This document shows positions 26,347 to 63,433 of a stretch of DNA of 64,000 bases, piece by piece. A model generated the notes under the pieces. That model saw only the letters and a program-made list of their open reading frames with translations, searched no databases and was not told the DNA's origin. Source of the stretch: Amblyomma americanum (taxonomy: Eukaryota > Arthropoda > Arachnida > Ixodida > Ixodidae); contig NC_135497.1 of NCBI RefSeq assembly GCF_052857255.1, forward strand, positions 187,641,127 to 187,705,126, read 5' to 3'. How positions within the stretch are numbered: the first letter of the stretch is position 1; each line of letters starts with the position of its first letter. The position numbers and the translations under genes are program-made.

Positions 26347-26420
26347 TGCCGCCGGTGGGATCCGAACCCACGACCTCCGAATATCGCGTCCGGTGCTCTT
26401 ACCAACTGAGCTACGGCGAC
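26347..26420 (-). tRNA. tRNA-like gene or pseudogene
   Basis: On the minus strand the 74-nt sequence folds as a cloverleaf. The acceptor GTCGCCG pairs with CGGCGGC (one G-U), and the D arm is GCTC/GAGC. The anticodon stem is CCGGA/TTCGG, and the T arm is GTGGG-TTCGGAT-CCCAC. The anticodon loop CGCGATA lacks U33, so the decoding identity is unclear. A run of seven T follows the gene on the minus strand (26334-26340), a pol III terminator. It lies between two (TA)n tracts, which suggests a dispersed tRNA-derived repeat more than a functional tRNA. Confidence 0.5.
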
Positions 26421-26720: not shown

Positions 26721-26727
26721 GTCAAAG
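26721..26727 (+). repeat. Target-site duplication of P element 1, left
   Basis: GTCAAAG is identical to 30860-30866 and directly abuts the element ends. Confidence 0.85.
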
Positions 26728-27078
26728 CAACACCCTCTAAATACTTTCTTCAGGCCTCTCCAGGCCCTCCTTTCCACACGCGCTACGTCACGCCAAGTGT
26801 CCGGTCAGGCTGCTCACCAAGCGCGGCTCCGCTCCGCTCGGTTGTCTCCCTCGATGTGCTCGCGCTTGCCCGGGCAAGCACAGACACGAACGCAGTCTTG
26901 CAGTGAGCGTCTAGCTGCTGCTTGAGTCTTTCAGCCTGGCGTTGGGTGCATTTCCGTTCGCTCCTCGCACGGCTGTGTCTGTTTCGTGTGGCCGTTTCTT
27001 GTGTGGCGTGCGTACCTGTGCTAGCGCACGAATGGGAAACTGATTGCCTGCCGTGTAGCGAGTGCAACTTCGTGAAAC

Positions 27079-30000
27079 ATGGGCCGGTGCTGTGTTCCCG
27101 GGTGCCGCGGGAACTACCAGAATGGTCCCAAAGTACGTGTTTATTGCTTCCCAAGAGACGAAGTACGAAGAAAAGCCTGGTTGCGAGCCATTCCACGGAA
27201 GGATTTCACACCTACAGAGCATTCGAGGGTAAGACTGAAATATTGCTTAATAGGCGCTGGTAATTATCTTAGTTGTGAGCTGTCGCTCCCGGAAAGGCAT
27301 GCTGTCTTTGTAGGCAATGATATCACTTCTTACACTTATGTATGAATTGTCCAGGAAGCATTTAGTTCTGTGGATGTGCATAAGGCTTGTGTAAAAGCTG
27401 TGTAAATATGTAAAAGCTGTTCACTATTCAGACTCTTTTTACTTAGTGTTTTAGGCAATGGAGAGTCATGGCGAATGGCCTTGCTTCATTTTCTCGTGCA
27501 GGTGTGTGAACTGCACTTCCACGCAGGCGACTTCATTACGACGTTGTCACACCAAGATGAACTGACAGGGAAAATAATAGAGGTGAAGCGTGACAGGCTA
27601 CAGTTGAAGATTGATGCTGCGCCTTCTGTTTTTCCAAACTGCCCAAAATACTTGTCCTCAACGCCTGGACGGAGTGAATCGCCAGAGACGAAAAAAGCAA
27701 GAAGGGAAAACGCTGCTTTGCAGGAGGCTATGAGGAAGTCACTTCAGTCTAATGAGCTTGAACAGAAAAGAAACAAAGTTTCATCTTACGAGGAGTTCAA
27801 ATCTAAGTTGCCTGGAATCTGCAACACGAAATTCTGGACCGTTTCTGTCGATGAGCAGTGCGTTAGGTTCCTTCTCATCGAGAATGATCCTTCACCTAAT
27901 GTGAAATGCGCCTTGGTAGTTCTCCCTGATCTGTCACTTTCTGTTTTCTTGAATGGAGTGAAGCTTCTGTCGCTTCCTTCAGGCAGGATTCTGCCAGCTC
28001 AAGTATGCGACACCTCCAGCCTGTCCTTGCTGCTAGAAGAACTCGAGATAGGCTTGCATAATATACCTGAGGTGACGAAAGAGTCGAAACATACTAAAGT
28101 ATTGCAGTTTGTCGGTTCACTGCTTGCAGACCTCATTGAGGACAGTGATACGACGAAAGAACAGTCTTCTTTGCTGAAATTTCTGGTTGAGCAGATAGAG
28201 CTTCTCCTCGCGAAACAGCATGTGTATAGCGCAGAGCTGCTGGTATTCGCCAGTATTTTGAATTCAATTTCTCCTCACGCATATCACTTCACAAGAGCTG
28301 CATCAAGAATCATTCTGCCCCATCCTTCCACACTGCGCCGTGTTTGCTCAAATTACAAAGCTGACCCTCTTGTGGAGCAAAATCAACCGCACTGTCTCTC
28401 CTACATCCGAGAACGAGTCAAATCAATGAAAGACCACGAGAAGACAGTGACCCTGATGATCGATGAGATCCACATAAAACCATACTTCGACTACAAAGGG
28501 GGCACAATAGTAGGATCGTCGGTTCATTCAACGGAACCAGCAACAACAGCCCATGTGTTCATGGTACAATCACTCCTTTCTGCAAACAAGGACGTCATTC
28601 ACATATTACCTGTGAGCAAACTGAGCGCAGAAATTTTGCACGAGCATGCTAAGAACATAATCATTAATGTTGAGAAAATGGGGCTCAAAATTATCGCTGT
28701 GATAACGGACAACAATGCTCTGAACCGCAAGATGATGTCGTTATTTGCTACAAGTCCTCAGGTGAGCATTGTCTATCCCCATCCAGCCGATAACGCTCGC
28801 CCTCTTTTCTACGTGGTCGATCCTGTGCATCTCTTGAAGTGCATTAGGAACAATTGGATTAACCAGAAAAACCCTGGAACATGCCTCTATTTCCCTGAAA
28901 TGGACTTGAGTGGAGCAATGCCCGAAGGGCCTCCTCGTATGAAAGCTGCTTCTTTCGCAGCTGTGCGGCAGCTTTATTCTTCAGAGAAGACGTCGCTTGT
29001 GAAGGCTGCTTACAGACTGAACGCAAAAGCCGTGAATCCAACCTCAATGGAGCGGCAAAATGTAAAGCTCGCTCTCGACGTCATTAATCAGTTTGTTTCA
29101 AATGCCCTCAGGACACATGGTTCCGCGTTCAAGATTCCTCAAGCTGAGTCGACTGCTCTTTTCATTGACGTTATCCTCACATGGTGGCAAATAGTCAATG
29201 TTAAGACCCCTTGCAAAGGCCAGAGGCTAAGGGACAGCATGCAAGACCCTGTAAGGTCTGTTGATGACACACAGTTAGCTTTCCTGAGCGGCGTTGTGGA
29301 CTGGTTGGACGCTTGGGCAAGAATAAACATCACCAGTGGCTCGCTGACGAAAGAGACTCACAGTGCTTTGCGACTGACATGCTATTCTCTGGTAGAACTC
29401 TCGCGCTACTGCTTAGAAGAACTTCACTTCAAGTACGTACTGCTGGGCAAATTTCAGACGGATGCGCTAGAAGACCGGTTCGGCCGTTACCGCCAGCTGG
29501 CAGGATCACAGTACCACATTTCCGTGCGTCAGCTCTACGAATGTGAGAAGAAGCTTCGTCTTCAAAAACTTTTGACATTTCCACGCGAGGAAACAGAGTT
29601 TGAAGACGTAAGTGAGGATCTTGTCCCATGCAACTTTTCTGTGGCTGTCAGCGACGACGATATTACACACGCCCACTCTGACATGGATGCTATTGTCTAC
29701 ATTGCAGGATACGCTGCTCATGCTGCTTTAAAGAAGCTTTCATGTTCTGCTTGCTTCAGCACATTGGTGATTGAAAATCGAGAGATCGAAGCGGAAAATA
29801 CTGCCATGATAGCTAACCTGTCGAGAGGAGGGCTGAAGTTTCCCCAGCCATGCACAGTTCACATGGTACTGATGACTAAACTAGTTGCAGAGAAGTTGTC
29901 TTTTGGAGCAACCGCGGAAGATTTTCTCTCCTGTAGAAATCAACGTGGTGTCGTGATTTCACAGACGATTTCCCTCCTGGACGAACACGACATTGAGACA

Positions 30001-30162
30001 TGTGAAAATGGCCACACTGCACAAACTCTCCTGCGCTTGGTAGTACGCGTTGCAACCAACGTTGTTCTAAACAACTTTTGCAAACTAAGAAATGATGCCA
30101 TACAAGACAATGCGCAGCAGAAGGCCGCAGCCCGGAAAGCAGCAACGCTTAAGAAGAAGTAA
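27079..30162 (+). CDS. THAP-domain P-element transposase, 936 residues
   Basis: Exon 1 (27079-27228) and exon 2 (27502-30162) join in phase across AGG/GTAAGA and GTGCAG/GTG. The N-terminal THAP zinc finger is split by the intron: C4/C5..C9 in exon 1, then C52-E-L-H55 in exon 2, with the family's AVPTxF box as AAPSVF near 89-94. A charged, probably coiled region follows (about 105-140). The RNase H-like fold shows MIDEIHI (D371) and ITDNNALN (D453). The GTP-binding insertion shows VVDPVHLLKCIRNNW (D490). ALEDRFGRYRQ (E707) supplies the final acidic residue. It should bind the element ends and cut and join DNA in the nucleus, with GTP as cofactor as in Drosophila P; that is inferred from family. 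AATAAA lies at 30178. Confidence 0.92.
27229..27501 (+). other. Intron splitting the THAP domain
   Basis: The 273-nt intron has a consensus donor GTAAGA and an acceptor after a TTTTCTCGTGCAG tract. If retained, the frame from 27079 stops at 27343-27345 after 88 residues. An in-frame ATG at 27475 lies just upstream of exon 2. Retention would thus give a truncated finger protein, or a transposase lacking the first THAP half. Confidence 0.75.
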
Positions 30163-30177
30163 GTTTTATTCCCAAGC

Positions 30178-30183
30178 AATAAA
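30178..30183 (+). terminator. AATAAA poly(A) signal of P element 1
   Basis: AATAAA lies 16 nt after the stop codon at 30160-30162. Confidence 0.6.
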
Positions 30184-30859
30184 AATGCTTTGCGCACACT
30201 TCATTGCTGGTGTCTCGTCGTTTTTTATTGTAAGGGTCAGATTAGCTGTACAAATACTCAACAGCGCAACATTATTGTGAGTGTCATTATTGCTGTGTGT
30301 GAAAGCTTTAAGCAAAACACAATACAGAATAAAACTAACACAATGCGCAGTAGACGGTGTTTTTTTTTTCAATGTTCACGAACTTCTACTTTAACAACTA
30401 GATATACGCATGTGCGGTCTGTGCGGATGGATTTTACCGCACGGCAGACATCATGTACGTGATAGAACCTAATAATTAGATGATTAATTGAAATTAACTA
30501 ATCAATTTTTTATTATAATGACCAATAATGCGAAATTGGCGGCCGTATGCTAAATTGTTTATTATAAAAAACTGTATTAGCAGCTCGAACTTTCTTGACA
30601 ATAAGGTGTTCTGCAATAAAAAAAATATATAAAGCAGATAAAATGATAGCCTAAGGCGCGCACAAACTAGCGAATTTCTTTTCTGCAGCAACGACAAAAA
30701 TGAAAATGAAGGAATCACTTATAAGGCAGCTACGTACGGCAGTACCCGAATAGTGCAGACGGGCGCGGCGCGCTGAAATCGCGGAGCGCGGGGCCTGCAC
30801 GGTCCCTTGGCGTGACGTCACGCGGCCGGTGGAGAGGCCTTAGCATTGAGAGGGTGTTG

Positions 30860-30866
30860 GTCAAAG
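30860..30866 (+). repeat. Target-site duplication of P element 1, right
   Basis: GTCAAAG repeats 26721-26727. Confidence 0.85.
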
Positions 30867-31145
30867 GAACAGACGAGAAAAAAAAGGGGGGGGGGGGGGG
30901 GAGAAAGGGGAGGTTAAAGACAGTGGGGGCAGAGAGGGGTGAGTTGTCCACAAGGAAAAAAAGGTGGTGCATGGGGCGCCGACAAGAATTATTATTGGGG
31001 GAAGCCTCCTTCGGCGGAAGCGAGAGGTTCGAACACGAGGAAAGAAAATATCATACACAAGAAAAGAACAAAGAAACGGAAAACAACACTGCGCGCATAT
31101 GCCTAAGAGCGCGATGCGTTCCCAACGGGTGTGGCTGTTAACAGT

Positions 31146-31450
31146 TAAAATGTAAGTTACGGAGGCGGTGCGGGCCGGCCAAACGCCGCGCAGAAACCCG
31201 ATCCCGCAGCCGGGCGCCGCGAAGTGCCCAAGGGCGCCTCCGCCCCGCGTTTCGTCGCGGAGACAAAAAGAGGGCTCCTTCCTATAAAAAATGTTAAATG
31301 TTAAATGTTAAAATGTAAGTTACGGTGGCGGTGAGGCCGGCCAAACGCCGCGCAGAAACCCGATCCCGCAGCCGGGCGCCGCGAAGTGCCCAAGGGCGCC
31401 TCCGCCCCGCGTTTCGTCGCGGAGACAAAAAGAGGGCTCCTTCCTATAAA
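31146..31450. repeat. Two-copy tandem duplication, unit about 167 bp
   Basis: 31146-31288 and 31313-31450 are almost identical G+C-rich sequences (GTAAGTTACGG.. to ..AGGGCTCCTTCCTATAAAAA). They are separated by a short AAATGTT repeat. The near identity implies a recent duplication. The function is unknown. Confidence 0.9.
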
Positions 31451-31822
31451 AAAAAAGGAAGGAAACTGAGAGAAACTGAGAAAAGAAACTGAGAGACAGG
31501 AGAGTAACAGAAAGCAAATGGGGAACGAAGGCGCGAAATCGCCCAAGTGTACGTTATTGCAATGGGTTACTGTCCTATATGGAGCATCACGCTCTACTAT
31601 CTTCAAAGGAAAAAAGAAATAAAGAAAAATAAAATATATAAAATATATAAGAAGTTGAGGGGGGAATATGCAATATGCTTTGCTGTCAGCACTGTTTTCT
31701 CTGGTCATGAGCAAGAAAGAATGGCAGGGGGAGGAGAAGGGCGGCATGTGGAAGCAGGCACGCAAATTGGCATGACCTCAGGCGATGCAGTCGGGGTGCT
31801 GTGAATTTCAGTAGGGCTAGGA

Positions 31823-34424: not shown

Positions 34425-36575
34425 GGTTGTGGTGGTAAGCATTTATTATTTACAAGGAGGTATTCGGGCCTAGGCCCTATGGCCCAGGTCCTCACAAATC
34501 TAGGTGGAGCTCCTATTCCGGAGCCCCAATGGCGTCTAGCGCCGCTCGCGCCCTGGCGACCAAGGTCCGTTGGGACTGCAGGTCATGGCAGCGGAGCAGC
34601 GCCTCCGCCCTAGAAGGGTGGGAGATGAAGGATTGGGAAGGGTGGGCATTGGAAGGGCAGGCCCAGACCATATGGAAAACGTCCGAGAACGTCGCTCCGC
34701 ACATCCTGCAGCCACCATCAAATTCTAAATTGGAGTGTTTCAATACTGCCGGGCACAGCATTGTATTTGTAAAAATTTTGAGATGAAGCCGTTCGTCTGC
34801 TCTCCGGAGACCCTTACAGGGTTCCGGAAAGCGACGATGACTGTCCTTATAGTATGTAGTGATGTCTTTTAATGTAATTAGCGATTGGGTAGGCCCGTAG
34901 TAGGCTTCCTGAGCATGTGTGAGTGCCCGGGGAGAGAGCGCGCGGGCCGCCTGATCGGCTGACTGCCCTGGAGTCCCTGGTGGCCGGGAGCCCAGATGAG
35001 TTTACAGTTTGGAGGGGCGCTGGACCGACAGCAATTTTGTAGGATGCGCCAGGCGAGAGGAGGTATCCAACCCAGCTCATAGCTCCGACAGGCCTCCTTC
35101 GAGTCGGTATAATGTGTTTTACTTGTGGGAGGGAGAGTGCGAGCGCAATCGCGATTTCCTCCGCGTGTGTAGTGCTGTAGGCGCGGAAAGTGAGTCCTGC
35201 CACTGTGGTGTTGTCGTGGACCACTGCTGCGGTGAACCACCCTCCACGGTACGTGGGGACCGGCAATGTCCACGTAGTACACGTGTTGTTGTCGACCATA
35301 ATGTCGCTCCAGTGCTTCCGCACGCGCCTGGCTACGACCATTGTGGTCAGAGTGACATGTAGCGGGGAATGAGTCGGACCCTGAGGACGCGTCTCCAGGG
35401 TTCCGGCGCTCGTACCCGTTCCTCAAATGTGATGGTGTGTTGGATGTGGAGTCGGTCAAGAATGCAGCGACCGGATGGCGTTTGTGATAGGCGCGTATAT
35501 TGGTTGACGAGATGGGCATCTTGGAGTTCCCGATAGGTGTTGACCACCCCCAGGTCCAACAAACGCTGGTTGGATGTGGTAATCGGAAGGTCAAGAGCCC
35601 GTTTGATGACTTTGCGGTGCATGACCTCGAGTTGGCTCTCGTCGTGTTTGCGCATGTGAAGGTAGGGGGTTGAGTAGAGAATTCTACTCGTTACAAAGGC
35701 ATATGCCAGCTGCAAGGGATCTTTGCTTCGGAACCCCCCCACGCTTGTTGGAGACTCGGCGGACCATACGGCCCACCTGATCACCATACATGCGGAGTTT
35801 TGCCAGTGTTGTGACCGGTCTGCGTTGTTGGTGAATAAAGAGACCGAAGATGCGGATCTCCTTGGCCTCTCTAATCGGACTCGAAGGGAGTGTGAGGTGA
35901 ATTGAAGTGTCGTCCCGAGGAGAGGATCGAATAAGGACAAATTCTGATTTGTACCACAGTATGCAGCGTAAGTGTCCACTGCTACTGCTGCCTGTTGTAG
36001 GCAGGCCTCCATGTGTCCGAGATTGCCTTCTGTTGCCCAGATAGAGATATCATCCGCATATAGGGCATATTGGATGCCGGGCATAGAGCTTAATTTTGCG
36101 GGAAGGTCTTTCATTGCGAGGTTGAAGAGGAGGGGAGATAAAACCGCACCCTGTGGTGTACCCCGGGATCCGATGGTATAGGGTCCATGTTCCTTGTCTT
36201 GAATTCGAATGTAGGCCTGACGACCCGTGAGAAATTGGCAGATGTATCGGTATGTATTCTGACCACAGTTGGTATCTTGCAGGTGGTTAAGTATTACTTC
36301 ATGTTTCACATTATCAAAGGCTCCTTTCAAATCCAAGGCCAGGACTACCTTGTAATTGTGATGGAGTTCTTTGGGCTCTAATATGTCATGATGGAGTTGT
36401 AGAAGGACGTCTTGTGCGGATTTCTGTGGTCGGAAACCAAACATAGTGTCTGCAAAAGTGTGACGTGTTTCGAGGTAAGTGGACGGCGTTCTGTCGTTGC
36501 TGAGAACAGGGGGTCGCAAGTGCTGAGCGCGGTTTGAAACACATCTTCGCCTTTCGTGACTTCACTCAATCGAGG
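34425..36575 (-). pseudogene. I-clade-like LINE: RT, RNase H and CCHC, 5' truncated
   Basis: The minus-strand 390-residue frame (36519-35347) shows FGFRPQKSAQDVLLQL, LALDLKGAFDNV, RGTPQGAVLSPLLFNLAM and ALYADDISIWA, a full RT palm with YADD. Shifted frames then give an RNase H-like region (AVVHDNTTVAGL, HAEEIAIALAL, IWAPGHQGLQGS). A final knuckle reads CRMCGATFSDVFHMVWACP. The stop at 34513 precedes an AATAAATGCTTACCACC tail near 34430. Endonuclease and ORF1 are absent. At least two frameshifts after the RT make it inactive. Confidence 0.8.
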
Positions 36576-46339: not shown

Positions 46340-46590
46340 TATGGTGGCTAGAAGGAGAGGTGTCAGCATCGTTGCGGTCGCGCCGTGTTCGGAGGCGCGC
46401 TGGTATTTCATGCCGCCGCGGGGCGGCGCGCACGTCGCTACCGAGATCCGTCGAGAGCACCCGCCAGCCGCCGTCGCCGCACATTTCGTCGCCTACAGGC
46501 AGGTACAGGCACGTGTTCCCGCAGCGTCTGCGGGGTGCTGGTTTTAAATTGTTTGGGATTGCTACGCACCGACGTGGCCATGCCACAGTG

Positions 46591-49435
46591 ATGTCCAAAC
46601 AACAAAGACACTGTTTCGCACCTGGATGCAAAGCGGGGTATGTTTCGGCCCGCAAACAAGGGAAGAAGGCGTCTCTCTTCGCTGTTCCCGTCGACGATGA
46701 ACGACGCAGGGCCTGGGAGCGCGCAATTCCTCGTGCTGACAAGCCATTGGAGAAGAACTGCGCTGTGTGCGAGGCTCATTTTGACGAGAGATTCATCGTC
46801 CGTAGCTTCAAGCATGTCGTCAACGGCGAGTCTGTGGAAATCCCTCGTGATCGCCCTACACTGACAGACGATCCGATTCCCACGATATTTCCAAATGTGC
46901 CTGCTTACCTCACAAAAAAGCTGCCTCCAAAAAGAAAGACGGTGTCGTCCAATGGAGGTGCAACTTCAAAGCGAAGAAAGGTTGACTCCATTCACGACGA
47001 ACCGCTGAGTGCTGAAACCGACGTTCTGTCAAGTTCGAACTGTAGCGGCGGCTACAATATCTTGGAGGGTATGACGCAAGACGACCTTCCAAGTAAGTAC
47101 TGGGCGAAACACGTAATCCCAAACGATACGGACGTTGTGGCGTTCTCAGTGTGTGCTTCAAGTGGTGGAACTCTGTGCTTTGAAAAGTTACTTTTGTGTT
47201 CAAGTAATGCCTCAACCTTTCATTGCTCGGCATATGTACAGGGTGTTCTTGTAAAAACAGTGGATGTCGACAGCATTAGTGATGTTAAGGACCTCCTGTT
47301 CGAAATGGATGCCATGATTCCTTGCGAGGGGTTTGAAATGGAAACAGGAATGCAAAGTGGGCAAATAAAAACAAAGCACAGACTCCATGGAGGGAAGCTG
47401 CACAGCCTCACGTGTTGTGGGACAGTGCAAAATAGAAGTCGATGCTTGCAGTGCAAATACCTTCGTAAGCTGTTGATAAATCAGGCATACTATAAGCGTA
47501 CAAGAGCGAGAAAGGCAAGAGGTAACCTCACACAGAAGCTAACGCGAAAAAATGCGCAGCTGCGACGGCAAAAGCGCAGCATTGCAAAGTTGAGTGAGAC
47601 CATGGAAAAGATGAAGCAGGACAACGAAGCTATAAGCAGCTCTAGTTTTGAAGCGAAGTTGCAAAGCCTGCCAAAAAAGCAGCAAGTGCAGGTACGTGAA
47701 TGCTTTGAAGCATCTAAAAGGAGAAAAACCAATGGAATGGTATTTCAGCAAGAGTGGATCCTTGAATGCATTGTGATGAATATGAAAAGCGCCCGTCTTT
47801 ACGACCACATTCGTAAGCTCAGGATCATGGTTGTGCCAAGCCCTTCGTGCCTGCGTACTTATGTCCGTAAATATAGAAGTGGTTTTGGCTTTAATGAAGA
47901 AGTGCTCACGGCTGTTGCAGAGAAAGCACGCACTATTGATCCGTATCACCCACACGGCGGCATACTCGTGGATGAAATGAAACTCTGAAAAGTTGACTGT
48001 AGACAGCAAAGGGCATGTCCAAGGGTTCGTTGACCTCGGCAAGTACACCTCACCAGGGCAAGAAGGTGCTCAATGTGACCATGGCCTTGTAATTTTCTTT
48101 CAGCCATTCACAGGCACATGGAAACAAATTCTCGGTGCGTTTGGTGCACGAAGCAATGTAAAGGCAGATGTTCTGGCCAAAATCATTGTTGACGCTGTGA
48201 TTTGTGCCGAGAAATCGGGGCTCTTCGTGGATTTTGTGACATGCGACGGGGCTGTGTGGAACCGCAGCATGTGAAAAATTTTCGGTGTAAGTGGGAAGCT
48301 CGAAAAGACAGTGTGCAAAGTAAAGCACCCAGTGGATCCAAGCCGGTATTTGCATTTTTTTGTCAGATTTCCCCCACCTGGTGAAATGTGTGCGTAACGC
48401 TGTAACCTCCAAAGGGCTGTTAACACCAGATGGTCGAGTTGGCAACGAATATGTAAAGGAGGCCTGCAAATGCGACACTTCAAGTTCAGTGACACTCAGG
48501 GCAATGCCACACGTCACCATGGCTGTTTGTCAGCCTAATGGCTTCGAAAAAAATGCGGGTCAACTTGGCGTTCACCTTCTTCAGTGATGAAGTTTTAAGG
48601 GGCCTGTATGTCTACAACCGCCAAGTGGAACACTGCTATGGCACTGGCTGTACCAAGGCTACTTCTGCATTTGTCTCTATGATGAGAGACCTCATCGATG
48701 CCATGACATCGAGATACTCAAAGCGAGGTTTAAGACCAGACAGTAAAGAAGTAGCAAGCATCAAACGCTTTCTGGAGTTTTTAGCGACCTGGGAAAAAAC
48801 TTTGCCTATGCAGGGTGGGTTCTTGAGCGAATCAACAGCCGAAGGACTCCGTGTTACTCTTACCAGCACACTTTCCATCCTGCTCTATGTCACGAAAACC
48901 CTGGGGTTTAAGTACTTGATGACTTCTCGTTTGAGCCAAGACGCGCTTGAAAACCTCTTCGGGATACTGAGGCAAATGTCTGGCTCTAACGACCACCCTA
49001 CACCGAAACAATTTTTGATATCTCTGAATTGCCTCAGTTTTTACAGCTTAGCGCAGTCCCCCTCCAGTGGATCACTTATTACGTCAGTGGCTATGTGGCC
49101 CGGAAGATGTTGAAAAAGACGAAGTGCAGCGAATGTAGCAGGCTGTTGCTTCACACGGAGGACTCGAGCTTGCTTCCGGCAGAGTCGTGCCTCGCACGTT
49201 ACATTAATAGGGGTGGCCTCCTGTACCCGTCTGAGTCCCTAGCAGACCTGGTCAAAGCTATGGAGGATGCTTTTACTTACTGCTTCAGTTTCAACAAGTT
49301 GAAAACTGATAGCATCATGGACCTCATCTCTTGCCTGTCTGTGAAGAGGTTAAATATGGTCGGCTGTGAGCAGCAAAAAGTGGAAGTGTCGAATCAAATC
49401 TTTCGCTTCTTCACATTGACATAATAATAATAATT
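46591..49435 (+). pseudogene. P-element transposase pseudogene (THAP type)
   Basis: The likely start is MSKQQRHCFAPGC at 46591, because THAP proteins begin just before the first Cys pair; an upstream Met at 46225 lies outside the element. The THAP finger is C8..C13, then CEAHF and IPTIFPN. No intron splits it. A coiled, basic stretch follows (ARKARGNLTQKLTRKNAQLR). The RNase H core shows GGILVDEMKL (D461), then CDGAVWNRSM and ALENLFGILRQ. Lesions: frameshift with TGA at 47986, Trp-to-TGA at 48272, slips in the T run near 48355 and the A run near 48548, and another near 49030-49075. A SINE inserted at 49422 replaces the last codons. The copy cannot make transposase. Confidence 0.85.
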
Positions 49436-49758
49436 GGTTTTTGGTGGAAAGGAAATGGCGCAGTATCTGTCTCATATATCGTTGGACACCTGAACCGCGC
49501 CGTTAGGGAAGGGATAAAGGAGGGAGTGAAAGAAGAGAGGAACAAATAGGTCCGTAGTGGAGGGCTCCGGAATAATTTCGACCACCTGGGGATCTTTAAC
49601 GTGCACTGACATCGCACAGCACACGGGCGCCTTAGCGTTTTTCCTTCATAAAAACGCAGCCGCCGCGGTCGGGTTCGAACCCGGGAACTCCGGATCAGTA
49701 GTCGAGCGCCCTAACCACTGAGCCACCGCGGCGGGGCAACTTCTTCTTCACATTGACA
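49406..49758 (-). mobile_element. Ruka-type SINE, full length, with 16-bp target duplication
   Basis: The SINE body is 49422-49742 on the minus strand, head to tail A ending in (AAT)n. CTTCTTCACATTGACA occurs at 49406-49421 and 49743-49758. It was inserted into the 3' end of the P element 2 gene and is therefore younger. Confidence 0.93.
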
Positions 49759-50705
49759 AGGATGCATTTTCTTGTTGCTGGAGAAAATGCGTGCAACCAA
49801 AAATAGAGGGAAAAGATGAAGTTCTTGAAGTTGAGACGTACTACATAACTTTCATAATGTTAACACAGCCAACAAGGTTTTCTTTTTTCACGGTGTTGTA
49901 CATTACCCACATTGTGTCATCTGTTGTGACTTTTTAGTAATGTCTTATTCGCATTGTTACAAAGGTAACATTAGTAAATTTGATGTCACAATTTGACTGT
50001 GTTTGACACAGGTAGAAATCAATTTTTGTAAGCTGGTTTATGACTGCATCTGTGTTTGCCAATCAAATCTCAATGCCATGTGTGTATGCCTATTTTAGCA
50101 TTGCATATTGACTTCTTTTTACTTGCCTTGTTTACTTTTTAGCTCAGTTTTTGTATAACTTGCAGTTCTCACCTACATTGATGCGTATTTTCTGTTCATT
50201 TTCTTTTGATGGTGTTTTTGACGTTTAATTGTGTGTGTCAAAATAAATGTCTTGCTACACCTTGCTTTTCGATGAAGTCATCAAAATAAAGCGTTCAAGT
50301 ATGGTTTCTAATGCTTCTACTTGAATTGAGACGTCATGGATAACACTGCAGCATCAAATCTAAACTGCACGGACGTTGTTCTGGTGACAAACTCATGGCA
50401 AGTCATTCGATTCGCCATCTTCCAGCGCTTCGGGGTGCCAGCGGCGCACGCAGCGAATATACAGGGAAGCAAGTTCAAACATGGTTTTCAGTGCCTAAAC
50501 ACGATTTGCTTCGAGCCGTCAGAAAAGTGTGCCAACTAGCCTTTGTTGTAATCAGCGCGGTATCCTGAAATAGCTGCGACAGAAAGCGGCTGCTACGGGC
50601 GCGCGCGGGTAGCGTCTCGGAGCCGACAGCAGCGCCGCCGCGTCTGGATGAATTCTCGCTCCTCCGGCGCGCCGATGCTGACACCTCTCCCTTCTAGCCA
50701 CCATA

Positions 50706-51030: not shown

Positions 51031-51689
51031 ATATGTAGTTCTCCTTGTTTAGGACGCTGGAGTGTGTTTGCAGAAAGGCAAACACACTCCACCAGCATTT
51101 AAGATTCACAAACAATTGTGTACTTCGTTCACATCTTAAGCACACATCAGAGACACAAGCAGCAACACCGCGCTAAAGGCTTTCGCCTCACCGCTCTTTA
51201 GGTCAACAAAGTTCCCCCTGAATTTTTTATTTCTCACGTACCCATGGACACACCGTGAAGGAAGGGAGGAGTGCACCAATGTGTGGTACCATTCTTATTT
51301 TGGAATTTCATAAAGGGGGCTGGCGCGAACGCCGAGCCCCGACTACCAAAAATTAGTGCCCCATCTACTCCATTTAGGAGTAGTGGCGTGCTTCAGCCTT
51401 CCGCAGGCCTCGGCACGGGGCCCCGACCTTGCTGATCGCCGGTGACCCAGCACCAGGTAATTATGGACTGAATGAAGACTGACTGAAATCGGATGTCATG
51501 CGATTCATACCTCTGTTCAGTACCAGTGGCCAATACACTTCTTAAGGAGTTCCTTTTTCGGCATTAGGCACAATTTTGTTAAAAAAGCTACAGCGGGACA
51601 GGGAGGGACCACAGACAGGAAGGAGTAACTGAAGTTGACCTAATAAATGATTTTAACAACAAGAAAAAAAATTAGGTGTTAGATGTGTT

Positions 51690-52822: not shown

Positions 52823-53066
52823 GCGGCTGCGTTTTTATGGAGGAAAAATGCTAAGGCGCCCGTGTGCTGTGCGATGTCAGTGCACGTTAAAGATCCCCAG
52901 GTGGTCGAAATTAATCCGGAGCCCTCCACTACGGCACCTCTTCTTCCTTTCTTCTTTCACTCCCTCCTTTATTCCTTCCCTTACGGCGCGGTTCAGGTGT
53001 CCAACAATATATGAGACAGATACTGCGCCATTTCCTCCCCCCCCCAAAAAAAAACAATTATTATTA
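52823..53066 (+). mobile_element. Ruka-type SINE, 5' truncated, inside LINE RT
   Basis: It starts in the GCGGCTGCGTTTTTATGG part after the B box and ends (ATT)n. TCTACGGG flanks both sides (52815-52822 and 53067-53074). Removing it reconnects the RT frame, so insertion followed LINE decay or arrival. Confidence 0.88.
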
Positions 53067-54344
53067 TCTACGGGCTTTCCTCCCGTCCCTCATTTTCTGC
53101 CACCATGTTTGCTCCATCCCCGGTCGTGAAATACATAGTTTATCTTCCGTAACGCAAGATATCCTAGAGTATACTATACGGCGGCGCGCACAGAGTCTTC
53201 TTGTTTCCCTCGATCAAGAGAAGGCGTTCGACTATTTAGTGCATGAGTATATTTACGGTACGCTGGATGATTTCGGTTTCCCACCTCCTTTCGTGCTTCT
53301 CATTAAAGAGATGTACAGACATTTCAAGCGCTCTGCTCCTCGATGGCCGGGAAAGTACCGCATTGATGTTGGCCGCGGCATCCGTCAAGGTTGTCCGCTC
53401 TCCCCCCTTTTGTTTGTGTTAGCATTAGAGCCTTTCCTCTTGGCAGTCAATCACCACTCTCTTTATTATTAGAGTTCTGGCTTTGCTAGACAGTGAGGCA
53501 TGCAGTACGCGTCACCGCTTATGCAGATGACATCCCACTCTACTTAGCTGATGAACGCAGTCTGCTCGAAGCTTTAAACGTTTTTCGTGAGTACGCCTCC
53601 TTGTCGGGGGCTGCTCTTGATTATTCGAAGAGTCGTTACTTTTTTGTTGGGTCTCCTCAGACACGTATTACATGTGCGATAGCTTTGCAGTGGTGCGCGC
53701 AGATGCGCATTTTAGGCGTGACCTACGACTGTGCTGGAATATGGGATGGTATGTGGTCATCGGTCGTAGAGGGCATTACAGCTCGTGTGCGGAGGGCCCA
53801 GGCATTTGACCCGCCTCTGCTTGAGAGGCGCTACCTGGTTCAGTCGGTCGTGCTGGGTGCCTTCTGGTACCTTTTCCAGATTGTTAAACCACCCCTGCGC
53901 GTCATAAAGCGGGTGCAGATTACAGGTTTTTTTTTTGGTCGGGCGGAACCGAGCTTGTGGCTCGTGCTGTTCTTGGACAACCACGGGAGAGAGGAGGTTT
54001 TGCCTTTCCAACTTTGTCCATCACGTCCTCGCTGTTAGCTTTGAAGTGCATTCTGCGTATCCTGCCAGGGAACGCGTCTCCAGCGCGAACCCTGGTGCGG
54101 TTCTTTTTGGGCCCTTCTTTGCGCTTTTTGAATCCCTCCGCCACTGTTAATCACGGACCTCAATTAGAGCGGCCCACCGCTTTCTATGCTACGTCAGTGG
54201 CCTTTTTCAGACATGCAAGCGCAGTAGCACCTGATGTCAACATCGTTGTAGACCGTGTGGTCTCGCTTTTGCTGCCAAATGTGCCGGCGGCTCGCCGTTC
54301 ACCGATGCGCCGCGTTCAATGGGCGCGCATAGCGTCGACACCTC

Positions 54345-54707
54345 TCCCAGACCATCTATTAATAATTGGTGGTTTTTGGGGAAAGTAAATGGCGCAGTAT
54401 GTTTCATATATCGTTGGACACCTAGTTGGGCATAATAATTGGTTTTGGGGGAAAGTAAATGGCGCAGTATCTCTCATATATCCGGAACCGCGTTGTAAGG
54501 AAAGGGATAAAGGAGGGAGTGAAAGAAGAGGTGCCGTAGTAGAGGGCTCCGGAATAATTTCGACCACCTGGGGATCTTTAACGTGCACTGACATCACACA
54601 GCACACGGGCGCCTTAGCGTTTTGCCTCCACAAAAACGCAGCCGTCGCGGTCGGGTTCGAACCCGGGAACTCCGGATCAGTAGCCGCGGCGTGTCCCAGA
54701 CCATCTA
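54345..54707 (-). mobile_element. Ruka-type SINE with 14-bp target duplication and doubled tail
   Basis: TCCCAGACCATCTA occurs at 54345-54358 and 54694-54707. The body between them is minus-oriented. The tail end (GGGGAAAGTAAATGGCGCAG) appears twice, at about 54376 and 54450, so the 3' tail was partly duplicated. It lies inside the LINE. Confidence 0.9.
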
Positions 54708-55181: not shown

Positions 55182-55507
55182 CCCCGCCGCGGTGGCTCAG
55201 TGGTTAGGGCGCTCGACTACTGATCCGGAGTTCCCGGGTTCGAACCCGACCGCGGCGGCTGCGTTTTTATGGAGGAAAAACGCTAAGGCGCCCGTGTGCT
55301 GTGCGATGTCAGTGCACGTTAAAGATCCCCAGGTGGTCGAAATTATGCCGGAGCCCTCCACTACGGCACCTATTCTTCCTTTCTTCTTTCACTCCCTCCT
55401 TTATCCCTTCCCTTACGGCGCGGTTCAGGTGTCCAAAGATATATGAGACAGATACTGCGCCATTTCCTTTCCCCAAAAACCAATTATTATTATTATTATT
55501 ATTATTA
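55182..55507 (+). mobile_element. Ruka-type SINE, full length
   Basis: Intact A box TGGCTCAGTGGTTAGG and B box GGTTCGAACCC, full core and tail A, ending (ATT)n. TTTCTCTTTG at 55172-55181 and 55508-55517 is a 10-bp target duplication. The copy looks young. Confidence 0.93.
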
Positions 55508-57223: not shown

Positions 57224-57539
57224 GCCCCGCCGCGGTGGCTCAGTGGTTAGGGCGCTCGACTACTGATCCGGAGTTCCCGGGTTCGAACCCGACCGCGGCG
57301 GCTGCGTTTTTATGGAGGAAAAACGCTAAGGCGCCCGTGTGCTGTGCGATGTCAGTGCACGTTAAAGATCCCCAGGTGGTCGAAATTATTCCGGAGCCCT
57401 CCACTACGGACCTATTTGTTCCTCTCTTCTTTCACTCCCTCCTTTATCCCTTCCCTTACGGCGCGGTTCAGGTGTCCAACGATATATGAGACAGATACTG
57501 CGCCATTTCCTTTCCACCAAAAACCAATTATTATTATTT
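57224..57539 (+). mobile_element. Ruka-type SINE, full length
   Basis: Head, core and tail A are nearly identical to 55182-55507. It ends CCAATTATTATTATTTA. No clear target duplication was found. Confidence 0.92.
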
Positions 57540-60695: not shown

Positions 60696-62062
60696 CTAAA
60701 AGGCTCGGCTTAGCCCGTCGGCATTTGTGTGGAGCGTGCCTTTCTTGTAGCGAACCTCGAAGCTGTGGTGCTGGAGTGCGAGGCTCTACCTCAGTATACG
60801 ACCATTTTTGGGCGACATATTGTGCAGCCAAGTCAAAGGGAAATGGTCCGTTTCTACTGTGAAACGGAACCCGGAGACGTAGCATGCCAGTTTGTCTATC
60901 GCCCAAACGAGGCATGCGCATTCTTTTTCAGACATGCTATACGCCTCTTCCCGCGTGCTGAGCTTGCGGCTCAAGTAAAGGACAGGCCGTGTGCGCCTGC
61001 CATCGCTTTCCTGGCAAAGAATAGCGCCTAACCCGCGGTCGCTGGCATCACATTGTATGATAAAGGGTTTCGAGAAATCTGGCGCAGCCAGTATTGGGCG
61101 CTCGCTTAGGGCCGTTTTCAGACTCTGAAATGCCTTCTCTTTCTTTTGGTTCCAAGAAAGATTGGCAGGCTCACTTTTTCTCAGCGCGTCGGTCAGGGGG
61201 CTGGCTAAATCAGAGCAGTCCTTTACATAATGCTGATAATAGCCTGCTAGGCCAAGAAAAGCCCTGAGTTCCGATTTTGTGGTTGGGCGACGGTACTCCA
61301 CCACGGCAGCCACTTTAAGTTCTGCAGGTCTGCGTTGGCCTCGTCCAACCACGTGCCCAGGATAGTTCCCTTCGGCGCACCCCAGGTGGCATTTTCCCGC
61401 CCTTACCGTTAAGCCAGCCTCAAGCAATCGGCTCAACACAATATGCAGGTGTTCAATGTGCTCCTCCCAGTTTTATGAGAAAACGGCCACGTCGTCAAGG
61501 TAGGGGAGAGCGAAGTTTGCAAGTCCCCGCTGCACTTGGTTCATTAACTTTGAAAAACAGTACGGAGCATTTTTCAAGCCGAAGCTCAACATTACAGGGC
61601 GAAACGTGCCCGCGGGGGACACGAATGCTGCGTACCTGCTGGCGCGCTCAGTGAGTGGCACCTGCCAGTAACCACGAACTAAATCCAGTGTGGATATATA
61701 TTCTGATTTAGCGACTGTTTCAACCCTCTCCTCGATGTTCGGAATGGGGTAGGTCTGGTCCACTGTGATTGAATTCAGTCTCCGGTAGTCCACGCAAGGT
61801 CTCGGATCCTTGCCTGGAACCTCTACAATAATGATTGGTGACGTATAGTCACTTTCACAGGGCACTATGACGCCAAGTTCGCACATACGGCGGATCTCCG
61901 TCTCAATGATTTCTTTTTGTCTTGGAGAGACACAGTATACGGTTTGCTCCTGATTGGCTGTTCGCTGGACAGCTGAATGTCGTGTTCGACGAGGGTTGTT
62001 TTTCCTGGCTTGTTTGAAACGCAGACGACGTTTTTCATGTCTCCTAGTTGATTTTCCGACAA
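60696..62062 (-). pseudogene. Reverse transcriptase and RNase H of the Ty3/gypsy-type element
   Basis: The start PGKTTLVEHDIQL, then MCELGVIVPCESDYTSPIII, DPRPCVDYRRLN and the catalytic LPYLDDVAVFS mark the RT. NWEEHIEHL, the thumb and GYYQHYVKDC, then FIIQCDASDRGLGAIL, SEKECACLVWAI and VETDHFPLTWL, mark RNase H with its Asp-Glu-Asp set. Stops at 61473 and 60786 and one frameshift near 61900 interrupt it. Confidence 0.85.
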
Positions 62063-62113
62063 ACGTGGCTCTTTGTTGATTGAATTTAGCAGCTCATTCG
62101 CTGCTGCTCGTCC

Positions 62114-63433
62114 TCATGTATGACATAAGGTGTGTCTGATGATTTCTTCCTCTGGCATGTTCAGCGCCATGTTAACCATGGCCTGACGCTGCACATAAGG
62201 CTTCATCAAATTACTGTGGACTATCCGATTGTGTTTGTTCTTAAATTTGACCTCATAGTTGGTGTCCGAAAGCTTGGACACCACCTTAGCTGGCCCTTCC
62301 CATTGCACCCCAAGCTTGTTCCTTTTTGATGGACGCAGCAACATCACCTGGTCACCAGATTGAAAGGTGCGCTTGCGTACAGATTTGTCGTAGTACACTT
62401 CAGACAGTGGCTGCGCTGCTCTGACATTTGCTTCCACGAGATCTCTGGTTTTCGCAAGTCTTTCCAGCAGTTTCAGGACGTATTCAACTACACAGGGAAC
62501 CTCTCCGTAACCCTCCCATGACTCCCTTAGCATGCGCAATGGGGTCCTCAAGTCACGCCCGTAGACTAGTTCAGCAGGGCTAAATCCTGTGCTTTCGTGG
62601 GGGACGGATCTCATTGCAAAGAGTGCTGCTGGAATGCAGCCTTCCCAATCTCCCTTATGCTCAAAACACAGAGACCTAAGTATCCGCTTTAGCACTGAGT
62701 GCATACGCTCGACTGGATTTGACAGAGGGTGGTGAATGGAACTGCGGATTATTTTAATCCCACACCGTTCAAAGAACGTTGTTGTCAAGCAGCTTGTGAA
62801 CACGCTCCCGTTATCGGTTTGAATATTTGCAGGGAACCCCACGCGAGAGCAAATTGACAAAAGGGCGTCTACAACGCATGCGGAACTTAGCTCCTTCAAG
62901 GGAATGGCCTTGGGAAATTTGGTTGCCACGCACAGTGAGGTCAGAATGTAGCGACAGCCAGAGTTGGACGCTGGCAGTGGGCCGACCGTATCTATTACAA
63001 GACGCCGAAAGGGCTCTGTAATTATGGGAACTAGTGTCATGGGTGCTTTCCATTTATCCGTCGACTTGCCGACCCGCTGGCAGGTGTCGCAAGATCTAAC
63101 AAGCTGTTCCACATCTTTCCAGCAGCGAGGCCAGTAATATTAGAGGACTAATATAGCTTTTGTTTTCTTTATGCCCAGGTGGCCCGCCCATGCATTTCCG
63201 TGTGCGAGCTCTAGAAGCTGCCGCCGGTACTTCTCAGGCACCAGGAGTTGCTCATATGCGCGTCCCTTTGAGTCGCAGTATTTCCGGTACTGAAGGCCTG
63301 ATTTCTCATGAAAGCTGATGTTCTTTCTGGCGACTCCCTCGCTCACTTTATTGCTTAGAGCTCTTAACGATGGGTCGTTTTTCTGCTCTGCAATAAGTGC
63401 TTTCCCATCAACCTTAGTCAACTCCTCCAACAA
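62114..63433 (-). pseudogene. Integrase region of the Ty3/gypsy-type element
   Basis: The zinc-binding part shows LELAHGNAWAGHLGIKKTK, then SCDTCQRVGKS. The core shows LVIDTVGPLP (first Asp), IQTDNGSVFTS (second Asp) and SNPVERMHSVLK (Glu), followed by a C-terminal GDQVMLLRPS and GVQWEGPAKVVSKL domain. One TAA at 63140 interrupts it. Catalytic residues are otherwise retained. Confidence 0.85.

Follow-up and report, generated by a model that had tools for sequence, protein, structure and literature searches.

Does the tick Amblyomma americanum carry a complete P-type transposon, and could such an element still move? The question is raised by a stretch of 4132 bp (26728-30859) within 64,000 nucleotides of contig NC_135497.1, referred to below as the window, meaning the whole stretch of DNA that was analysed. 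A sequence-only reading of this locus had described a structurally complete P-type transposon with an intact transposase, had considered its completeness a sign of recent mobility and had called its occurrence in a tick notable. The element is real and is rightly described and rightly named P-type, and the tick host is supported as well. We consider it very probable that it is a DNA transposon of the P superfamily, complete, of autonomous type and cut-and-paste in its mode. That confidence covers identity and mode only, and the evidence for it is the element ends, the target-site duplication, a reading frame that is open once a modelled intron is removed, the P-type domain order and the catalytic residues.

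Element ends and target-site duplication

The inverted termini, the two inverted subterminal blocks and the perfect GTCAAAG duplication that the sequence-only reading had reported were all found in their places (Table 1). A perfect 11-bp terminal inverted repeat (TIR) with a 7-bp duplication is within the range of the P superfamily, in which TIRs are accompanied by duplications of 7-8 bp. The duplication is 7 bp and not 8 bp because one further base on either side mismatches, and an 8-bp duplication was rejected on this ground; the element thus lacks the 8-bp duplication of canonical P elements (Drosophila, Anopheles and zebrafish).

To gauge how often such a structure would arise by chance, we filtered out low complexity and scanned for pairs of perfect inverted 11-mers that are separated by 0.5-10 kb and bordered on the outside by the same 7 or 8 bp. 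The 64-kb window contained six pairs: the GTCAAAG-flanked element, a second P-type element (46340-50705) and four pairings of CCGGGAACTCC with flank GTTCGAAC (49681 or 54663 with 55237 or 57280), which we read as tRNA-like repeats, position 54663 being without a tRNA-like match of its own. A set of 30 simulated 64-kb sequences (first-order Markov) contained no pair that satisfied these criteria. A scan of this type returned 6052 pairs when left unfiltered, and every one of the 30 inspected consisted of TA runs.

Table 1. Coordinates of the P-type element, its transposase gene and the second P-type element in the window.
Feature	Position	Strand	Remarks
Left target-site duplication GTCAAAG	26721..26727	.	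7 bp; sequence read and inverted-pair scan
Left TIR CAACACCCTCT	26728..26738	+	11 bp perfect; 18 bp at 89%
Left inverted block AGGCCTCTCCA	26752..26762	+	Offset 25 from left end
Left inverted block CGTCACGCCAAG	26786..26797	+	Offset 59 from left end
Transposase exon 1	27079..27228	+	Coding, residues 1-50; start and first half of THAP zinc finger (C4, C9)
GT-AG intron, modelled	27229..27501	+	273 nt; same joined product in public annotation
Transposase exon 2	27502..30162	+	Coding, with stop; rest of THAP (C52, H55), helix-turn-helix (HTH), RNase H, insertion domain
AATAAA	30178..30183	+	Starts 16 nt past the stop; sequence read directly
Right inverted block CGTCACGCCAAG	30806..30817	-	Offset 43 from right end
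Right inverted block AGGCCTCTCCA	30830..30840	-	Offset 20 from right end
Right TIR AGAGGGTGTTG	30849..30859	-	11 bp; inverse of CAACACCCTCT
Right target-site duplication GTCAAAG	30860..30866	.	7 bp
Second P-type element	46340-50705		4366 bp; termini TATGGTGGCTAGAA...; protein search and inverted-pair scan

The transposase and its proposed action

Joining the exons over the modelled intron gave a product of 936 residues whose sole stop is terminal and which is identical over its full length to the annotated protein of LOC144094883. Pfam placed a THAP domain at residues 4-94 (E 1.5e-15), with the C2CH residues C4, C9, C52 and H55, as in other members of the P superfamily. Exon 2 contributes an HTH at residues 275-330 and an RNase H fold at residues 347-464 plus E707, and between the two RNase H parts lies a helical insertion domain at the position of the GTP-binding domain. 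Drosophila D230, D303, E531 and D339/H342 align with D371, D453, E707 and D490-x2-H493, respectively, which constitutes the DDE triad with D(2)H described for P transposases (PMC8230255, PMC4168063); a second alignment put these residues in the same columns. Reading of the joined frame confirmed the earlier description of a two-exon, 936-residue THAP transposase with D371, D453, D490 and E707 in place. The AATAAA behind the stop is likely a polyadenylation signal.

By homology with cut-and-paste P transposition, the mRNA would be spliced and translated, the THAP domain would bind the subterminal blocks, whose spacing is unequal (offsets 25/59 on the left versus 20/43 on the right), and both transposon ends would be paired. 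The RNase H triad D371/D453/E707 would then excise the element and join it to the target with a 7-bp stagger, as the duplication suggests, and fill-in of this stagger would generate the GTCAAAG repeats.

Comparison with known P-type systems

The element resembles the Drosophila P element (structures 6p5a and 6pe2) in its THAP, HTH and split RNase H with insertion domain, in its equivalents of D230/D303/D339/E531 and in subterminal sites that are unequally spaced at the two ends (9 and 21 bp in the fly; PMC7776569). It differs in length (4.1 kb versus 2.9 kb in the fly), in its TIR (11 bp perfect versus 31 bp), in its duplication (7 bp versus 8 bp) and in having one modelled intron where four reading frames are spliced together in the fly (fly values from PMC7776569); it shares three of the eight GTP-contact residues. 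Galileo, a P superfamily element of Drosophila, likewise encodes a 905-aa THAP transposase with DDE and D(2)H and has mostly 7-bp duplications (PMC4168063), but its TIRs are long and Foldback-like and it has a marked target preference, whereas the TIRs of the tick element are short. The zebrafish Pdre2/THAP9 element also has a P-type transposase within short TIRs (13 bp) and distant subterminal repeats (PMC10983969), and differs in its 8-bp duplication and its termini. Duplications of 8 bp are reported for fly, mosquito and zebrafish P elements (PMC7776569, PMC1562414, PMC10983969).

Age and activity

In simulated neutral decay without indels, 40% of the frames were still open at 1% divergence and 16% at 2%, and with an assumed indel rate of 0.12 per substitution the proportion was 15% at 0.5% divergence and 3% at 1%. 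Because simulated neutral decay rarely leaves the frame open, the copy is probably young or was under selection until lately. The open frame probably points to one of these two without separating them, and it falls short of showing mobility. We favour, with some reserve, the view that the insertion of the copy, or the last selection on it, is recent enough to explain why the frame is still open. Whether it may still move today with its own product is a matter on which, judging from sequence, we lean slightly to the negative. The earlier claim of recent mobility is thus unproven, the open frame fitting a young insertion or late selection.

The element could alternatively be a P-type insertion that is old, fixed and now silent, with a frame left open by luck, a reading that we take seriously without preferring it. 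It would fit the 16% of frames surviving indel-free decay to 2% divergence, the absence of a near-identical shorter derivative for A. americanum among the matches listed in both piece searches, and the distance to the nearest separate A. americanum proteins (63-66% identity, among the matches listed). It is opposed by the mere 3% of frames open at 1% divergence once indels are allowed and by the perfect state of the 11-bp ends and the duplication.

Several results weigh against our main reading of the locus as a complete, autonomous-type P superfamily transposon. No A. americanum protein near 90% identity was present among the matches listed for a 405-aa middle piece (best 120 of 321) or among all 11 of the 11 matches to a 214-aa C-terminal piece; the best A. 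americanum entry listed across the two piece searches was P0139, at 53%. The protein cluster P0001 holds five member sequences whose origin is not stated. The Pfam model of the GTP-binding insertion domain had no match in the 936-aa protein even at E 1, and five of the eight residues that contact GTP in the fly enzyme are changed, three being identical, which departs from the canonical Drosophila P element.

A comparison of the element DNA with the rest of the window detected no second copy, the only two matches being of 20-29 bases (E 0.78); with the protein as query, the distant second P-type element was detected. A query of the joined flanks found no related empty site in the rest of the window; apart from short stretches, the only matches were to the outer margins of the query itself, of 73 and 66 bases. 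The right flank alone also matched an adjoining tandem repeat, a 162-bp unit in two copies (31136-31453) near the element's right end.

Relatives in ticks and line of descent

The full-protein search found 157 proteins, and the figures given here are from the best 120. LOC144094883 of A. americanum is identical, and the other tick proteins listed are 36-86% identical; they comprise sibling lineages in A. americanum and relatives in Dermacentor, Haemaphysalis, Rhipicephalus, Ixodes and Ornithodoros, many with THAP and RNase H and several partial. The closest separate protein listed belongs to Dermacentor andersoni. It is 86% identical across 72% of the query and 89% identical across the 405-aa middle piece, and it joined the window protein in a quick tree with a Shimodaira-Hasegawa-like approximate likelihood ratio test (SH-aLRT) support of 100. 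Among the 11 of 11 matches to the C-terminal query, proteins of Haemaphysalis longicornis and D. silvarum were each 82% identical, covering 93% and 51% of it, respectively, and the middle piece matched a Hyalomma asiaticum piece at 74%, among the matches listed. These relatives were compared as proteins.

These identities suggest that the lineage has probably resided in hard ticks for a long time, and since an old tick lineage accounts for them, horizontal transfer is not needed. That the element reached Amblyomma recently by horizontal transfer from a different tick lineage appears improbable. D. andersoni is indeed closer than the sibling lineages within A. americanum (63-66% identical, among the matches listed), and its grouping is fully supported in the quick tree, but the lineage is also found in H. 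longicornis and D. silvarum, and the Hyalomma asiaticum piece is 74% identical, as vertical descent in hard ticks could yield.

A host gene of THAP9 type, maintained by selection and not mobile, is very improbable: the locus is annotated as a gene, and human THAP9, a P transposase homologue that lacks the hallmarks of an element, has enzymatic activity (PMC7776569), but human THAP9 has no flanking TIRs (PMC7776569), whereas here exact TIRs and a target-site duplication enclose the gene, on which ground a THAP9-like domesticated gene was rejected, and sibling lineages occur in the same species according to the protein search and the tree. A viral or bacterial origin was rejected, the host being a tick; searches of viral contigs and of bacterial and archaeal genome contigs with the protein and with a protein alignment gave no confirmed relative, as expected of tick DNA. 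One P-type transposase, P0115, is assigned to a metagenome-assembled genome of Spiroplasma ixodetis and is most likely host DNA in that bin.

Place among known P-type elements

The claim that the element is notable in a tick is weak, since a survey that lists Ixodes scapularis as one of its analysed species reports the P superfamily from all the species studied (PMC6327564); the gene had already been annotated publicly, and there are many relatives in ticks. A literature search of titles and abstract openings yielded no paper devoted to a single P element of a tick. The term 'P element' occurs 0 times in the accessible main text of the tick genome papers PMC10561763 and PMC12341941, and the accessible text of PMC6562904 names P elements three times and Ixodes 0 times. 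The element is an ordinary specimen of a type already known as widespread in arthropods. Its structure is nevertheless clean and its coding part complete, which makes this hard-tick copy a candidate for testing excision. Of greater use, and the part worth following up, is the nucleotide pocket of the clade to which it belongs.

The nucleotide pocket

The fly enzyme contacts GTP through K385, K400, V401, S409, F443, D444, N447 and D528 (PMC7776569), and the tick residues at these eight places are R555, N570, V571, N579, W612, Q613, N616 and D704, three alignments agreeing on the columns. We aligned 115 proteins of at least 600 aa, taken from the best 120 of the 157, with the fly piece; 112 of them had letters at the first seven contact columns and 109 at D528. 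The F443 column contained W in 112 of 112, and the K400 column contained N in 103, D in seven, S in two and K in none. At D444 (n = 112) the residues were D (9), K (37), N (17), S (15), R (11) and others (23). K or R occupied the K385 column in 21 of 112 proteins, and S occupied the S409 column in 14 of 112. Three columns were kept: V401 (105 of 112), N447 (108 of 112) and D528 (109 of 109). In a looser count over 227 proteins, fragments included (the listed matches of the full-length and 405-aa searches), 188 contained the motif, of which 35 had D and 51 had K, D at this place being commoner than among the aligned proteins.

Because its proteins were selected for likeness to the tick protein, the sample describes one clade, not the superfamily. 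Its named members are from ticks, spiders, insects and a prawn, and the majority are unnamed. Proteins bearing D were scattered over several branches of the quick tree, in which the fly piece formed a very long branch. The piece from the neighbouring P-type element keeps D at the D444 place and S at 409. Human THAP9 also retains the aspartate (D519), and in the fly D444C abolished excision and integration, D444 being needed for activity (PMC8230255). PMC7776569 describes the GTP contacts as conserved across the P element family and the use of GTP as a feature of P transposase alone; the accessible text of a Galileo paper has nothing on GTP residues (PMC3688188).

These substitutions raise the tentative and rather doubtful idea of a large arthropod clade of P-type enzymes with a remodelled nucleotide pocket, which may rely on a different cofactor, or on no cofactor at all, when the transposon end is positioned. 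The base-specific GTP contact may possibly have been lost in the clade. For the present we think it likelier that other residues hold GTP, because the V401, N447 and D528 columns are strongly kept; they speak against a remodelled pocket in that the ligand may still be held in another way. The alignment alone cannot decide between GTP loss and GTP held otherwise. If another cofactor or none were used, GTP dependence would not be general to P-type transposition. Most pocket residues differ in the clade, and a direct test of the necessity of GTP to the mechanism is therefore possible.

A second P-type element and other repeats in the window

The termini of the second P-type element match over ~31 columns with one inserted base, and GTCCTGC (7 bp) flanks both sides. 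Its transposase is interrupted by several stops and frame changes and survives as pieces in several frames, in which Pfam recognized THAP (E 2.4e-12), the C-terminal part of RNase H (E 1.2e-10) and, just at the cut-off, the insertion domain (E 3e-05). Its best piece is 34% identical over 130 columns to the 936-aa protein, and the element belongs to a different lineage. The two P lineages in the window both have 7-bp duplications, a hint (n = 2) that an 8-bp stagger may not be the rule in ticks.

Three tRNA-Ser-like stretches with the same anticodon (act) lie at 49659-49733, inside the second P-type element, at 55185-55259 and at 57228-57302, and are likely parts of a tRNA-derived short interspersed element. 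Another tRNA-Ser-like stretch (cga) lies just left of the first element (26347-26420).

Of the 55 open stretches that reach at least 130 aa, 20 were searched with Pfam. Ten of these 20 contained no reverse-transcriptase piece; RVT_1 pieces were located at 35350-36561 (-) and 52915-54035 (+), the stretch 53490-54035 scoring under the curated cut-off. Remains of a long terminal repeat-type pol occupy 60789-63139 (-) in separate frames, with the minus-strand order integrase (62117-63139), reverse transcriptase (61476-62093) and RNase H (60789-61472). Integrase ahead of reverse transcriptase is unusual for a Gypsy-like pol, and either the pol order is unusual or two elements abut here. A full-length match to U1 spliceosomal RNA, a gene or a pseudogene, was found at 51314-51464 (-) with 98.1 bits.
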